Source: a virus
Strand: one strand, 5' to 3'
Virus record (IMG/VR): IMGVR_UViG_3300006033_000029
Location: 1 to 61,769 of that record
Length of the DNA: 61,769 bases
Numbering within the stretch: position 1 is the first letter of the stretch; each line of letters opens with the position of its first letter. The notes beneath the pieces are model-generated. The model ran no database searches. It worked only from the letters and a program-made list of their open reading frames with translations, and was not told the DNA's origin. Shown piece by piece: positions 46,296 through 51,299 of this stretch. A program made the position numbers and the translations under genes.

Positions 46296-46981
46296 AGCAC
46301 CACCTCTTCGTCCATGTCACCGGCCAATGGGTGAGTCTCGTCGGCCTCGGCCATACGGATTGCATCAGTGTAGATGTCCTCTTGGAGCCCATCCATGACC
46401 GCTCTGATCAGTTTGTATTGATCGGGCGTGATGCCAGTCATCCGTTCGAGTTGATCGGGGACGAGTTGGAGACGCTCGCGGATCGAGAGCAGGTACTCGC
46501 TGAACTTCGCCAGCACCTCTGACGTGTGCCAAAGTTCCCCTTCTTCCTGCATCACGCGGTTGCGGGCGCGTCTGGCTTGCCACAACTTGAGGCGCAGATC
46601 GTCGGGGAGATCATCGTCCTTGATGCTGCGTAAGAACTCCGCAGTGTCCACCTTCGGGTCGACCAGGTATGCAGCGGCGTCGGCCACCAAATAGAGCGGG
46701 TTGCCGTGCGCCCCGACGTCGATCGGGCGGCAGTCCTTCAGGCGGCGCTTCACCTGGTGCTCAGTCATGCCGAACACGAGCGCCAACCAGCGAACCGGCA
46801 CACCCTGCTTGATCTGGTAGACGCCACGGTAGGAGAGGTCCACGTCGCCATCTTCTTCGCCCTTCGGAGGTGGCAGCAGGGAAGGGTCGATCTTGCGCGG
46901 TCGCCCAGGACCACGGCGCGGCGGTGCCGTCACGACGCCCGCCAATTCGTCAATCTCGCGGCGGCGGTCTTCAGGCATCAT
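46292..46981 (-). CDS. Terminase small subunit (229 aa)
   Basis: ATG 46981 (TGATG overlap with the methyltransferase stop); TTG 46984 and ATG 46978 are possible. The N-terminus is basic with GPGRPRKIDP; residues 55-90 form a helix-turn-helix (VYQIKQGVPVRWLALVFGMT, EHQVKRRLKDCRPI) resembling Nu1-like DNA recognition; the C-terminal half is helical (KLWQARRARNRVMQEEGELW). It recognises the packaging site and recruits the large subunit, whose gene overlaps. Confidence 0.82.
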   Translation of the reverse strand: MMPEDRRREIDELAGVVTAPPRRGPGRPRKIDPSLLPPPKGEEDGDVDLSYRGVYQIKQGVPVRWLALVFGMTEHQVKRRLKDCRPIDVGAHGNPLYLVADAAAYLVDPKVDTAEFLRSIKDDDLPDDLRLKLWQARRARNRVMQEEGELWHTSEVLAKFSEYLLSIRERLQLVPDQLERMTGITPDQYKLIRAVMDGLQEDIYTDAIRMAEADETHPLAGDMDEEVVL

Positions 46982-48528
46982 CAACAGATTTCCCAGATGT
47001 TGAAGGCCCGCCCGATGCGCCTGGCTTCAACACTAATGCTGTTCGGCTGCACACCGGCGATGCTGACGATACGGTTGTTCATCATCTCCACATAGTCGGG
47101 GTTCAGTTCGCACAGGATGCCCCTGCGCCCATGTTTCAGAGCCACGCCTGCGGTCGTGCCGCTGCCGCCGAACGGGTCCAGCACCGTGCCGCCAGATGGG
47201 CAACCGGCAAGGATGCACGGCTCTATCAGGTCGGGCGGGAAGGTCGCGAAGTGCGCACCCTCGAAGGGCTTGGTCGTGACGGTCCAGACGCTGCGGCGGT
47301 TGCGCTTTGTGAAGTCATCACCGTCACGACGCTGGCCGGACTTCCATTCCGCACGACCATCGAGCTGCTTCGCACCGGCGCTGGTGTACGGACGCCGTGG
47401 ATCGTTTGTGACGCTCGGCTCCTTAATCGCCTCGGCATCGAAGTAATACCTCGGCGACTTCGAGAGCAGGAAGATGTACTCGTGCGCCTTGGTGCAGCGG
47501 TCGCTCACGCTTTCCGGCATCGGGTTCGGCTTGTGCCAGATGATGTCCTGTCGAAGGAACCAGCCCGGCTCGAAAGCGGACGGCGGCTCGATCAACCACG
47601 ATGGTATGTCCACAGATGCACGCTGGTTGAGCGAGGAAAGCAGATCAGTCAGCACCTTCCTCTTGTCGCGAGTGGCGTCACGCTGCGGCGAGTGCCCTAG
47701 CCTTTTGGCATCAGCCATCAGTAAAAGCAGGTTGTAGGCCACCATCGCTTGGCGCTTTTTCTCGATCAGATAGGGGTAGATTTCCCGCAGGATCAGCGTC
47801 TTGTTTTCGATCCCATGAACTATCCATCGCCAAGTCGGACGCTTGCCAATATGGCCGTCGCCGGGAACATCATGCTCACTCCGGCTGGCTGGCCAGATGC
47901 GCGCGGCTTCTTCCAGCAGGGCGCGGGAACTGTTCGTTATGGTGATGTGAACGCCGGTCCTCGGGCGCCCATCATCTGCCCGAACGTGGTGAAACCCGCA
48001 GATGGTCCCTTCTCCGTCGATCATTGCCGCGAGCCAAACACGGTCACGTTCGCGAGTGATCTTGCCTGTGTAGTATGGATCGCGCAGAGCCGTTGCGACT
48101 GCCCACGGGATGCCGATCAGGTCTTTGTGCTTCAGCCCGATGGCGGGGGCGTTGCGTGTAGGGTTGTATCCGTCGTGACGGCCGCGGTTGACGTTCGCAC
48201 CATCAGCAGCCTTGCCGCTTTTCCCGCCTGCCAGCGTTTCGGCGGGCTGGTGAGTGCCGCCGCGCGCAGCCGCATGGGCGCTGTAGCTATCCCCCAGGTT
48301 CAGCCACAGCGTACCGTCATCGCGCAGCACGCGCCGCACCTCGCGGAACACCTCGACCAGCCGCGCCACGAAGGCGTCGGGCGTTGCCTCAAGCCCGATC
48401 TGGCCCTCGTGCCCGTAATCCCGCAGACCGAAGTAAGGTGGGCTGGTGACGCAGGTATGGACGCACTTATCAGGCAGATGACGCAGCGATTCGATGCAGT
48501 CGCCGATGGAAATCAGGACGCTACTCAT
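46981..48528 (-). CDS. DNA methyltransferase with in-frame LAGLIDADG insertion
   Basis: A 515-residue protein. Methyltransferase motif IV is TSPPYFGLRDYG (residues 28-39) and motif I is LDPFGGSGTTAG near the C-terminus, the beta-type order of N4-cytosine/N6-adenine enzymes. Between IPWAVATALR and WFLRQDIIWHKPNPMPES an extra segment of about 172 residues carries WLAAMIDGEGTI, a LAGLIDADG motif. No intein splicing blocks flank it, so it probably stays in the protein as an inserted domain. It may protect phage DNA and also act as a homing or nuclease element. Confidence 0.85.
   Translation of the reverse strand: MSSVLISIGDCIESLRHLPDKCVHTCVTSPPYFGLRDYGHEGQIGLEATPDAFVARLVEVFREVRRVLRDDGTLWLNLGDSYSAHAAARGGTHQPAETLAGGKSGKAADGANVNRGRHDGYNPTRNAPAIGLKHKDLIGIPWAVATALRDPYYTGKITRERDRVWLAAMIDGEGTICGFHHVRADDGRPRTGVHITITNSSRALLEEAARIWPASRSEHDVPGDGHIGKRPTWRWIVHGIENKTLILREIYPYLIEKKRQAMVAYNLLLLMADAKRLGHSPQRDATRDKRKVLTDLLSSLNQRASVDIPSWLIEPPSAFEPGWFLRQDIIWHKPNPMPESVSDRCTKAHEYIFLLSKSPRYYFDAEAIKEPSVTNDPRRPYTSAGAKQLDGRAEWKSGQRRDGDDFTKRNRRSVWTVTTKPFEGAHFATFPPDLIEPCILAGCPSGGTVLDPFGGSGTTAGVALKHGRRGILCELNPDYVEMMNNRIVSIAGVQPNSISVEARRIGRAFNIWEIC
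47569..48084 (-). mobile_element. LAGLIDADG domain inserted in methyltransferase
   Basis: Approximate borders: residues 149-320 of the methyltransferase. It begins RDPYYTGKITRERDRVWLAA, carries one LAGLIDADG helix (AAMIDGEGTIC), ITITNSSRALLEEAARIWP and a helical end (EKKRQAMVAYNLLLLMADAK). Only one motif copy is evident, so action as a dimer is expected. There is no Cys/Ser at the left end and no His-Asn at the right, so it is not an intein. Confidence 0.75.
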
Positions 48529-48842: not shown

Positions 48843-51299
48843 TCAGCGGTGATTTGCTGAAGTCTTTCGTCTGCCTAACAATTTCAGGCGAAGATCCGCC
48901 ATAATCTCGTCTTGTGTGATGGCCCGATCCTGCAATTTTGGAAGAATATCATCATCATAGGTGCCCTTGGCGATGATGTGGCGGATGGTGACCGGCCTCG
49001 TTTGCCCTGGGCGGTGCAGACGCTTGTTCATCTGCTGATAGGTTTCCAGATCATGAGTCAACCCATACCAGACGAGTATGTTCCCGCCGAACTGAATATT
49101 CTGACCATGTCCCACAGATTGTGGGTGCGCGAGCAACAGGTCGATCTTGCCGGCGTTCCAATCGGCCTTCGTTTTCCTGACGTCACCCTCTCCAAAGACC
49201 ACCGCTTTCTTGAATTTCTTCCTGATTCGATCGAGGTCGAACTTGAAGTTATAGGCCACCAGGACGGGCGCACCGTCGGCTTCATTGACGATCTCTTCGA
49301 GGGCTTCCAGCTTCTTGTCGTGGATCCAGACGTCACGTCCGTTCTCGTCATACATGCTGCCGTTGCAGTTATGCACAATCAGAGGGCCGCGCGATCCTCT
49401 GACGACATACCGGTTTCTCGGCCCACAGTCGGCGATGTCATAGACTTTCGATCTACGGGTTTGAACAATCTCTGTCCGCGAAGGCCCCTCCTGAACCTCC
49501 TGTAGAAAGTCTGATATTCCAAACCCGCCTTCTCTGCTGCTTCCGCTAGACAGATCGTACCCCACGGACTCTCGACATGCACGTTGACTCGGGTGTTCCG
49601 CAACTGCTGTTTCTCCGTCACCCATCGGTAGTTCTGCGCCGAATACGGCTCGTTGTTGTTCACCCTGTCGATGGACAAATTGTCCGCGTATCCAACTCTC
49701 ACATCTTCCCAGAACGCCTCGAAAGATTCGAACCACGCTTGAGGCATGTCGATCCCACGACCCCCATAGTTCTTGAAATCCTTGGCCAAAGGATCCCGGC
49801 AACGAGACTTCATGAGCGTCCAAATCCGGTAGGGCCTGGTGCCAGTCATACCGTGACCATTTACACCTCTGCTCACAGTTTTCCCGTGCTTGCAGCCGCA
49901 GTTCGGAGTGGCTGTGGGTCGATGTGGCAAACGAAGATTCTGACTGATCCGAACTACTTCCTTCCCGCAGTCGCAACGGCACAGCCAGGTGGCCTTCTTC
50001 GTAGAAGTTGCCGTCGACCCGTGTCTCGACAAAACCGTCAGGTAACCGAACTTCATGCCGGTCAAATCTTTCGCAGGATGCGCCATCGAGAATCTCTTCT
50101 GCCTTCTTCCAACCTTCTACAGTAAGAATAAGATGCTCTTTGGTCATATCAACGCCAAAGCAAGGAATAACTTCCTTTTCTCCTTGGTAAAGGAGACCGC
50201 CATGAGCGACAAACTGCTCCCCATCCCATATGAGGTCAGTCGCCCCAATACTTTCGATTGGCTTCCATCCGTCTCTGGTAAGAACATCAGTACCTTCGGC
50301 GATGCAGAACTGCAGCAGTTTGCCCGCCAGCACGCCCCGGTTCACAGCCTCGATGTCATAGGCTTCGGAGACCAACGTCTTCTTGAACGCTTGGTATTCT
50401 TCCATCGCCTTGCGAGGCAGCGTGACGCGAACATCGTTGATCAGCAGCGGCGGCAAATCGGGGTAGAGTTCTGGGTCGAGCGTGAACATGATGTCGCTCA
50501 TGCGCTCAGTAATCTCCCTCTGTGCATGAGGCTTTGGCGTCAGATTCCAGCCCATGTAGTCCTTGTCGAACCACCGCTCCTCGAACTTCGTGCGAGACGA
50601 CCCGAGGCGCTCCCCGAGGTCGGCGATATAGGCCAAGCCCCACATGTTCCGCAGCCCTTTGGGCGTCGGCGTGCCAGTCATCAGAACGATACGCTTGACA
50701 AACTTCCGAGCCTTCGCAGCCGCGCCGAAGATACTGATCTCCTTCGTGGCGGTGCGCTTCTTCCCGTTCTTGAAAACGCTCGCCTCGTCGACGATCATCA
50801 TGTCGTAAGGCCACTTCTTCTCGAAGTGCTTCCAAAGCCAGGGCAGACCCTCCTTGTTGATGATGTGGACCTCGGCGCCATCCGAGACCAAGCGCCGACG
50901 CTTCCACTCCTTCGCTCTCGTTCGGTGCCGACCGGCCCACTTGGACGCCTCTGCTGCCGGAAGACCTGCGATCTTGGCGATCTCATAGGCGTCCTTGTAG
51001 GCACGCACGATGTCCTCGTCGTCATCTTCGGCCCTGATGAGCGTCCAGTCGATGTGGTTCAAGTGCTTCCAATCAGCGAACTCATCCGGATAGGTGGCCG
51101 TGGCGACCAGCATGGGCGCGACGATCAGCACTTTCTTGACGATGCCATCTTCGAGCAGGTCGTCGGCAGCGGTGAGCACGGTGACGCTTTTTCCGGCCCC
51201 CATCTGCCATCCGAGGATGGTGATCTCGTTCTCATATATTTGCCGAATTCCCCACTTTTGGAATGAGCGAAGCTGACTGCGCTTGATGCCGTTGGTCAC
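48843..51299 (-). CDS. SNF2-type DNA helicase with intein (818 aa)
   Basis: Extein is about 505 residues. Motif I GWQMGAGKSVT (30-40), motif II IVDEAS (169-174), motif III LMTGTPTP (206-213), and C-terminal helicase motifs HDLETYQQMNKRLHRPGQTR. Such phage Snf2-like helicases work with replication or recombination proteins. A 313-residue intein interrupts LLQF/CNGSMYDENG. It follows the VRR-NUC gene with overlap (51296-51299) and ends the replication operon. Start ATG 51299. Confidence 0.9.
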   Translation of the reverse strand: MTNGIKRSQLRSFQKWGIRQIYENEITILGWQMGAGKSVTVLTAADDLLEDGIVKKVLIVAPMLVATATYPDEFADWKHLNHIDWTLIRAEDDDEDIVRAYKDAYEIAKIAGLPAAEASKWAGRHRTRAKEWKRRRLVSDGAEVHIINKEGLPWLWKHFEKKWPYDMMIVDEASVFKNGKKRTATKEISIFGAAAKARKFVKRIVLMTGTPTPKGLRNMWGLAYIADLGERLGSSRTKFEERWFDKDYMGWNLTPKPHAQREITERMSDIMFTLDPELYPDLPPLLINDVRVTLPRKAMEEYQAFKKTLVSEAYDIEAVNRGVLAGKLLQFCIAEGTDVLTRDGWKPIESIGATDLIWDGEQFVAHGGLLYQGEKEVIPCFGVDMTKEHLILTVEGWKKAEEILDGASCERFDRHEVRLPDGFVETRVDGNFYEEGHLAVPLRLREGSSSDQSESSFATSTHSHSELRLQARENCEQRCKWSRYDWHQALPDLDAHEVSLPGSFGQGFQELWGSWDRHASSVVRIFRGVLGRCESWIRGQFVHRQGEQQRAVFGAELPMGDGETAVAEHPSQRACRESVGYDLSSGSSREGGFGISDFLQEVQEGPSRTEIVQTRRSKVYDIADCGPRNRYVVRGSRGPLIVHNCNGSMYDENGRDVWIHDKKLEALEEIVNEADGAPVLVAYNFKFDLDRIRKKFKKAVVFGEGDVRKTKADWNAGKIDLLLAHPQSVGHGQNIQFGGNILVWYGLTHDLETYQQMNKRLHRPGQTRPVTIRHIIAKGTYDDDILPKLQDRAITQDEIMADLRLKLLGRRKTSANHR
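49368..50306 (-). mobile_element. Intein in helicase containing an out-of-frame HNH gene
   Basis: 313-residue intein: Cys1 in CIAEGTDVLTRDGWKPIESI (block A), block B MTKEHLIL, and C-terminal block RNRYVVRGSRGPLIVHN followed by Cys+1. Extein joins as LLQF-CNGS. Between residues about 110 and 280 the intein frame is low in family likeness (serine/glutamate/histidine-rich) because the DNA also encodes an HNH endonuclease in another frame. So the splicing domain is about 145 residues. Confidence 0.9.
49379..50086 (-). CDS. HNH homing endonuclease nested out of frame in intein (235 aa)
   Basis: Reads in a frame one base off the intein frame. Full HNH family layout: DLTGMKFGYLTVLSRHG, zinc-like WLCRCDCGKEVVRI and NCGCKHG, then RIWTLMKSRCRDP, NYGGRGI, SIDRVNNNEPYSAQNYRW and VTEKQQLRN. 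The C-terminal region may be a DNA-binding repeat (ICLAEAAEKAGLEYQTFYRR). Start ATG 50086 with a weak AAGAG site; MKFGYL is an alternative. It matches the frameshifted HNH gene at 585-1183. It ends 11 nt before the intein's last codon. Confidence 0.85.
   Translation of the reverse strand: MAHPAKDLTGMKFGYLTVLSRHGSTATSTKKATWLCRCDCGKEVVRISQNLRLPHRPTATPNCGCKHGKTVSRGVNGHGMTGTRPYRIWTLMKSRCRDPLAKDFKNYGGRGIDMPQAWFESFEAFWEDVRVGYADNLSIDRVNNNEPYSAQNYRWVTEKQQLRNTRVNVHVESPWGTICLAEAAEKAGLEYQTFYRRFRRGLRGQRLFKPVDRKSMTSPTVGRETGMSSEDRAAL

Follow-up and report, generated by a model that had tools for sequence, protein, structure and literature searches.

The helicase gene in the window (the whole stretch of viral DNA analysed here, 61,769 nucleotides) contains an insert that is best explained, with a probability that we put at roughly 0.87, as a composite mobile intein with an out-of-frame homing endonuclease, an element that would be expected to splice, to express its HNH protein and to home. 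Since at least 144 related virus inserts share the out-of-frame HNH, the layout is widespread in phages; it is apparently undescribed. The elements of the insert and its host gene, all on the minus strand, are listed below with the evidence on which each assignment rests.

48843..51299, minus strand: host helicase gene, SNF2/DEAD-type, exteins plus intein, 818 aa (Pfam, PHROG, Loktanella homologue)
49368..50306, minus strand: intein reading frame, 313 aa, CIAEGTDVLT to PLIVHN, Cys1 to His-Asn, no stop (translation)
49365..49367, minus strand: Cys+1 codon (TGC) of the C-extein (sequence; Ala in the uninvaded Loktanella relative)
50085..50306, minus strand: N-terminal splicing block, residues 1-74, block A CIAEGTDVLT, block B TKEHLILTVEGW (conserved columns in alignments A1, A3 and A5)
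49368..49460, minus strand: C-terminal splicing block SKVYDIADCGPRNRYVVRGSRGPLIVHN (conserved columns G295, H312 and N313; AlphaFold2 pLDDT about 95)
49379..50086, minus strand: nested HNH endonuclease reading frame, ATG start, 235 aa, +1 relative to the intein frame (PHROG match, alignment A4, AlphaFold2)
50087..50104, minus strand: AGGCAGAAGAGATTCTCG, a weak Shine-Dalgarno-like stretch upstream of the HNH ATG, -3.1 kcal/mol (pairing energy)
49460..50000, minus strand: dual-coded core, evolving at the HNH wobble position, with the intein frame free of stops and predicted disordered (stop shuffling, codon-position divergence, AlphaFold2)

An HNH reading frame nested in a helicase intein

The host reading frame matches the SNF2-rel_dom family of Pfam (E 2e-11) and the phrog_62 helicases (E 1e-115), and has an intein-free homologue, the helicase of Loktanella phage pCB2051-A, with 54% identity over the exteins. 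Across the insertion site the pCB2051-A protein reads GKLLQFANGSMY, where the window has GKLLQF and C-NGSMY on the two sides of the insert, so the boundaries of the window intein match an empty site. The hallmark residues C1, T55-H58 (the TxxH of block B), H312-N313 and C+1 are all present and are conserved in alignments A1 and A3/A5, and full-length relatives of the intein frame align over 1-314. AlphaFold2 models residues 1-75 and 283-313 with a pLDDT of about 94-98, the middle being mostly below 50, and the top matches of the intein model in a fold search of the PDB were all inteins. By its hallmark residues, its predicted Hint fold and the intein-free homologue, the insert is an intein, which would be expected to splice. 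The open frame from Cys1 to His-Asn/Cys+1 had been placed at 50306..49368 in an earlier, sequence-only reading of the window, and translation returned exactly these coordinates. The same reading had reported a complete, separately startable HNH of 235 residues in another frame of a real intein, and this, too, was borne out (ATG at 50086, end at 49379).

The nested frame encodes a zinc finger (C.CG...CGC), an HNH core (HGM...NYGGRGI...DRVNNN...NYRW) and then a C-terminal region resembling a helix-turn-helix (HTH). It matches phrog_374 (E 2e-52) and phrog_3377 (E 1e-41), its AlphaFold2 model has a pLDDT of 88, and the zinc-finger cysteines and the residues of the HNH core are invariant among the 42 HNH rows of alignment A4. 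The profile match to I-HmuI (1u3e) was weak (E 0.009), and the fold search of the HNH model against the PDB gave no significant match for the HNH core. On sequence grounds the nested frame belongs to the HNH endonuclease family of the PHROG 374 type, and it would be expected to cut the empty site and to drive homing; what was seen in this respect is a patchy distribution and site-specific clades.

Two further observations were made in the window. A short second relative of the HNH lies at 875-1075 on the plus strand (43% identity over 63 residues, E 1.5e-10, in a frame of 104 codons). The adjoining DNA methylase gene (46981-48528, minus strand) contains an in-frame block, at residues about 160-303, that matches PHROG 5046 'HNH endonuclease' (E 9e-15), with a further, weak match to LAGLIDADG_3 (E 0.036); no splicing blocks are obvious in it by eye, and it recalls the 'lone LAGLIDADG' of phage methylases mentioned in PMC11855218.

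Related inteins and the frame of their HNH

Relatives were collected by tblastn with the whole intein frame and, separately, with the HNH, with IMG/VR and GTDB genomes added; the splicing blocks without the HNH were the query of a second survey, and a third started from full-length sequences of the intein frame, taken from the +2 and Gardnerella types. Pooled, the three surveys gave 164 distinct related inteins. The HNH lies in +1 in 109 of them and in +2 in 35, and the other 20 are mini-inteins of 110-167 aa; eight splicing-domain matches with no C-terminal block within 2.5 kb were kept out of these classes. The HNH was in frame in none of the 144 relatives that carry it. Relatives with and without the HNH, which the sequence-only reading had suggested looking for, were both found. 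No relative was detected in a search of plasmids, and a search of viral contigs with the whole helicase returned one locus only.

With the intein frame as query, full-length relatives were found in DNA polymerase genes, namely those of Caulobacter phages GB2A, RW, RLK and KcrB, of Shewanella phage SFCi1 and of APSE phages of Hamiltonella, and the tblastn matches of the HNH coincided with the places of intein-frame matches, in another frame. Translation in all frames revealed the nesting in GB2A, SFCi1, APSE-1, Sodalis phage SO-1, Pseudomonas phage MR14, Salmonella phage FSL SP-101 and a Gardnerella phage. Two of the nested genes, P46 of APSE-1 and gp39 of SO-1, already bear an HNH annotation, as genes that overlap the polymerase, and gp39 is given as an intron product. 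The host genes of the relatives are PolA-type polymerases (DNA polymerase I; two main sites), the helicase at the window's site (21 nested and 2 mini-inteins by a rough motif count) and a terminase-like gene, a few host sites being left without gene assignment in this census. Judged from these genes, the origin of the composite is not confined to the helicase lineage of the window: polymerase and terminase-like genes carry it too.

Several loci stood out in the census. In L055, L058 and L162 a single polymerase gene is occupied at two sites by nested inteins, one of them with its HNH in +2 and the other in +1. Nested +1 inteins at sites without assignment to the polymerase or helicase groups were seen in L172 (1884-2774 and 3270-4157, two on one contig), L168 (3987-4967) and the terminase-like L057 (2501-3391). 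In one locus, L156 (4001-4966), the HNH is intact in +1 and the intein frame of the polymerase has five mixed stops, the only such case among the 164; this is either a broken host gene or an assembly problem.

Probable expression of the nested HNH

The HNH starts directly after block B. A Shine-Dalgarno-like sequence (GGAGG, AAGGAG, GAGGAG or GAGGT) precedes this start in most relatives; where it is GAGGT, it arises from the codons for HEVL, a motif of block B. The mean pairing energy is -6.9 kcal/mol at the HNH starts, as compared with -2.5 kcal/mol at the remaining out-of-frame starts in these genes. This signal is strong in comparison with the other starts, yet in the relatives the block B amino acids are enough by themselves to make a run of purines likely (median null p about 0.3). 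Because the Shine-Dalgarno sequence is largely implied by the amino acids of the intein, we rejected it as proof of initiation and counted it as support only.

Internal initiation on the helicase mRNA is the best reading of how the HNH is probably made. Its main rival is programmed +1 ribosomal frameshifting, by which the N-terminal splicing block and the HNH would be synthesized as one fused protein, rather than the HNH from its own start. The window itself is compatible with such a slip, the match to a Shine-Dalgarno sequence being weak and the HNH frame opening about 10 codons before the ATG, which leaves room for it. Most loci, however, have a start codon near the natural N-terminus of the family, with Shine-Dalgarno pairing above background, and in L014, L019, L026 and L029 there is no room for a slip because a stop stands directly before the start. 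We therefore consider frameshifting improbable, and internal initiation preferable.

Selection on the two frames

The two overlapping open frames are more than chance would give. When synonymous codons of the window HNH were shuffled, the intein frame acquired 10.6 stops on average, and none of 1000 shuffles left that frame free of stops; the converse shuffle, of the intein codons of the window, gave 3.8 stops in the HNH frame, with a probability of 0.007 of none. When HNH codons were shuffled in the same way over 89 loci, 7.0 intein-frame stops were expected on average and none was observed, in agreement with the earlier proposal that selection keeps the host frame open. Free-standing relatives of the HNH (n=7) have 4-49 stops in each of the other same-strand frames, and the third, unused frame of the nested loci has 5.9 stops per 100 codons.

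Divergence by codon position was pooled over 16 close pairs. It was highest at intein position 3 in the extein (0.55), the N-terminal block (0.39) and the C-terminal block (0.35), whereas in the overlap the peak was at intein position 1, the wobble position of the HNH (0.39, against 0.14 at position 3). In the +2 pair L009/L011 the overlap peaks at intein position 2, which is again the HNH wobble. Divergence in the overlap was highest at the HNH wobble in all 16 pairs, clearly so except in the decayed pair L007/L095, where the peak is barely present, and the very close pair L072/L078. The HNH frame also had the wobble pattern when the window was compared with 13 helicase-site relatives. The splicing blocks are selected as protein in the host frame, and the HNH is selected in its own. 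Because the wobble position switches, and no stops are seen where about 7 are expected, the HNH is the conserved protein in the overlap, and the intein frame there is merely held open.

We also considered whether the intein frame of the overlap is constrained at the sequence level, and set this aside as marginal only: the identity in the window is 0.26, and shuffling synonymous HNH codons already gives about 0.23. The suggestion that about 700 bp must satisfy two proteins goes too far: the overlap evolves as coding sequence of the HNH, and apart from stops, the middle of the intein is almost unconstrained and is predicted to be disordered.

The HNH could also be a dead passenger, an old insertion that stays open by chance, and decay is indeed seen in some relatives (L095, L096 and L169). 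The wobble peak of the overlap in 16 of 16 pairs, with the two reservations given above, led us to reject a dead HNH, and the invariance of the zinc-finger cysteines and HNH-core residues in 42 sequences argues in the same direction; we regard this reading as very improbable.

Still less probable is an RNA-level group I or group II intron carrying the HNH gene. Such an intron is annotated in Sodalis phage SO-1 (GenBank note on gp38/gp39), and phage introns often house HNH genes. The conserved intein blocks with Cys1, TxxH, HN and Cys+1 speak against it, as does the evolution of the splicing blocks as protein in the host frame, and we rejected it since Rfam searches gave no intron match in the window region or in eight loci of relatives. 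The SO-1 element itself (L009, NC_013600, 2501-3400), described in its annotation as a type I self-splicing intron, has the intein blocks and no Rfam intron match, and looks like a +2 nested intein.

Origins and loss of the HNH

In the HNH tree, the root of which is not fixed, the helicase-site loci form one group (97*), the HNHs of the +2 inteins another (80) and those of the Gardnerella type a third (96*), and free-standing genes lie between the large +1 group and the +2 and Gardnerella groups. The clades comprise a +1 clade with PolA, helicase and terminase-like hosts, a +2 clade and a further +1 clade at another PolA site; the frame offset follows the tree. The case named against the sequence-only reading, in which paired frameshifts or sequencing errors would have given an ordinary in-frame HNH intein the look of nesting, is hardly credible. 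In-frame HNH inteins are known from the literature (Dalgaard et al. 1997, as cited in PMC5050341), but the relatives rule this reading out, as the HNH is out of frame in 144 of them from many records and in frame in none, its offset tracks the tree, and the nesting is present in complete reference phages.

The tree is in keeping with homing to specific sites and an infrequent jump from one host gene to another, and the nesting perhaps arose two or three times. With perhaps so few origins the absence of in-frame HNHs is not significant, the probability of finding none in frame being about 0.3-0.4 with two or three origins, and we rejected it as a sign of selection. The layout is old and mobile.

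Loss of the HNH with the splicing frame kept is a known decay path of homing inteins. The clearest case is the pair L191 and L193, near-identical viral contigs from one metagenome with an intein at the same polymerase site, which are 99.6-100% identical outside a single clean in-frame deletion of 531 nt in the HNH. All readable mini-inteins (L193/L111, L096/L177, L103, L169/L174 and L173) retain both ends of the HNH and are therefore deletion products; in L096, L177, L103, L169 and L173 the remnants at both ends lie in the +1 frame. In these relatives the HNH was lost by deletion while the splicing frame was kept. The APSE-like polymerase inteins of L095 (Arsenophonus) and L076 have an open intein frame and an HNH frame shortened to 161 and 169 codons, respectively.

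No ancestor of the composite, that is, a mini-intein from before HNH invasion, was found among the relatives. The idea that an HNH gene invaded a mini-intein may hold for the origin, but the mini-inteins that can be read are products of the reverse event. Taken together, what the sequence-only reading observed is confirmed, and its interpretation is supported in part.

A model for the composite intein

In the model that we favour, the composite intein, the helicase frame encodes a splicing block at either end, with a long linker of predicted disorder between the two, and the intein would remove itself from the helicase by splicing. The DNA of the linker, read in +1 from a start that follows block B, encodes a complete zinc-finger/HNH endonuclease, whose synthesis would probably begin internally on the helicase mRNA. 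If it acts as the nucleases of homing inteins do, the HNH would cut the helicase gene of a co-infecting phage where that gene lacks the intein, and the gap would be repaired by copying in the whole intein with its HNH. Selection acts on the splicing blocks as read in the host frame and on the HNH as read in its own; in the overlap, the intein frame is selected for the absence of stops alone. As relatives show, an in-frame deletion of the HNH can later leave a mini-intein. Against the model stand the weak Shine-Dalgarno match of the window, the run of purines that the block B amino acids make likely in any case, the intein-frame stops of L156 and, for the HNH core, a PDB fold search with no significant match beside the weak profile match to I-HmuI.

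Discussion

In-frame homing inteins, both LAGLIDADG (for example PI-SceI) and HNH in type, resemble the window element in their fold, in their conserved sites in replication genes, in having the endonuclease between the N- and C-terminal splicing blocks and in having mini-intein derivatives. In the window, by contrast, the endonuclease is in another frame, lies outside the intein protein and could be made without the host protein. In the 'fractured genes' that Dassa and colleagues are said to have described in 2009, an endonuclease gene lies between the halves of a split intein. These share with the window a separate endonuclease gene tied to an intein, whereas the host gene of the window is one unbroken frame, overlapped by the endonuclease. 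The free-standing HNHs of PHROG 374 (for example Burkholderia phage BcepMigl gp14 and Acinetobacter phage AP22 ORF19) are homologous to the window HNH along most of its length, with about 36-38% identity; unlike the nested ones, they are free genes with many stops in their other frames.

The closest precedent is offered by DNA methylases of mycobacteriophages, in which the ShiLan domain and the Pacc40 insertion contain an out-of-frame HNH (Arsenault, Gosselin and Gogarten 2025, PMC11855218). There, as in the window, an insertion contains an out-of-frame HNH, the host frame is open and the distribution is patchy and homing-like. The ShiLan and Pacc40 insertions, however, have no splicing domain and are believed to stay in the protein (PMC11855218), whereas the HNH of the window sits in an intein that is expected to remove itself. 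They also lie in methylases, while the nested inteins are in replication genes and have internal starts that often come with Shine-Dalgarno sequences. The window HNH has a tblastn match at a place in Arthrobacter phage Tiff81, which is not necessarily the Tiff81 HNH gene that was compared with that of Pacc40 (PMC11855218). We found no description of an out-of-frame HNH nested within an intein in the open-access PMC literature.

Dual-coded inteins may conceivably be a major convergent class of phage homing elements, although we offer this only tentatively. They would have arisen by at least two or three out-of-frame captures of an HNH, and would have been favoured as the dose and folding of the nuclease are uncoupled from the host enzyme, the nuclease is entangled with an essential gene and the DNA of a splicing block doubles as its ribosome-binding site. 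Splicing domains that tolerate such linkers may serve as tools. The more than 140 natural pairs of overlapping genes, in which one frame is fully constrained and the other only open, should be useful for the theory of overlapping genes, and same-site pairs with and without the HNH, such as L191 and L193, make endonuclease loss from inteins directly testable. The nested layout is common in phages, where it has been annotated away as polymerase sequence, as 'HNH endonuclease' or as a wrong intron, and it represents a third way to join a homing endonuclease and an intein, beside in-frame fusion and the split-gene arrangement.
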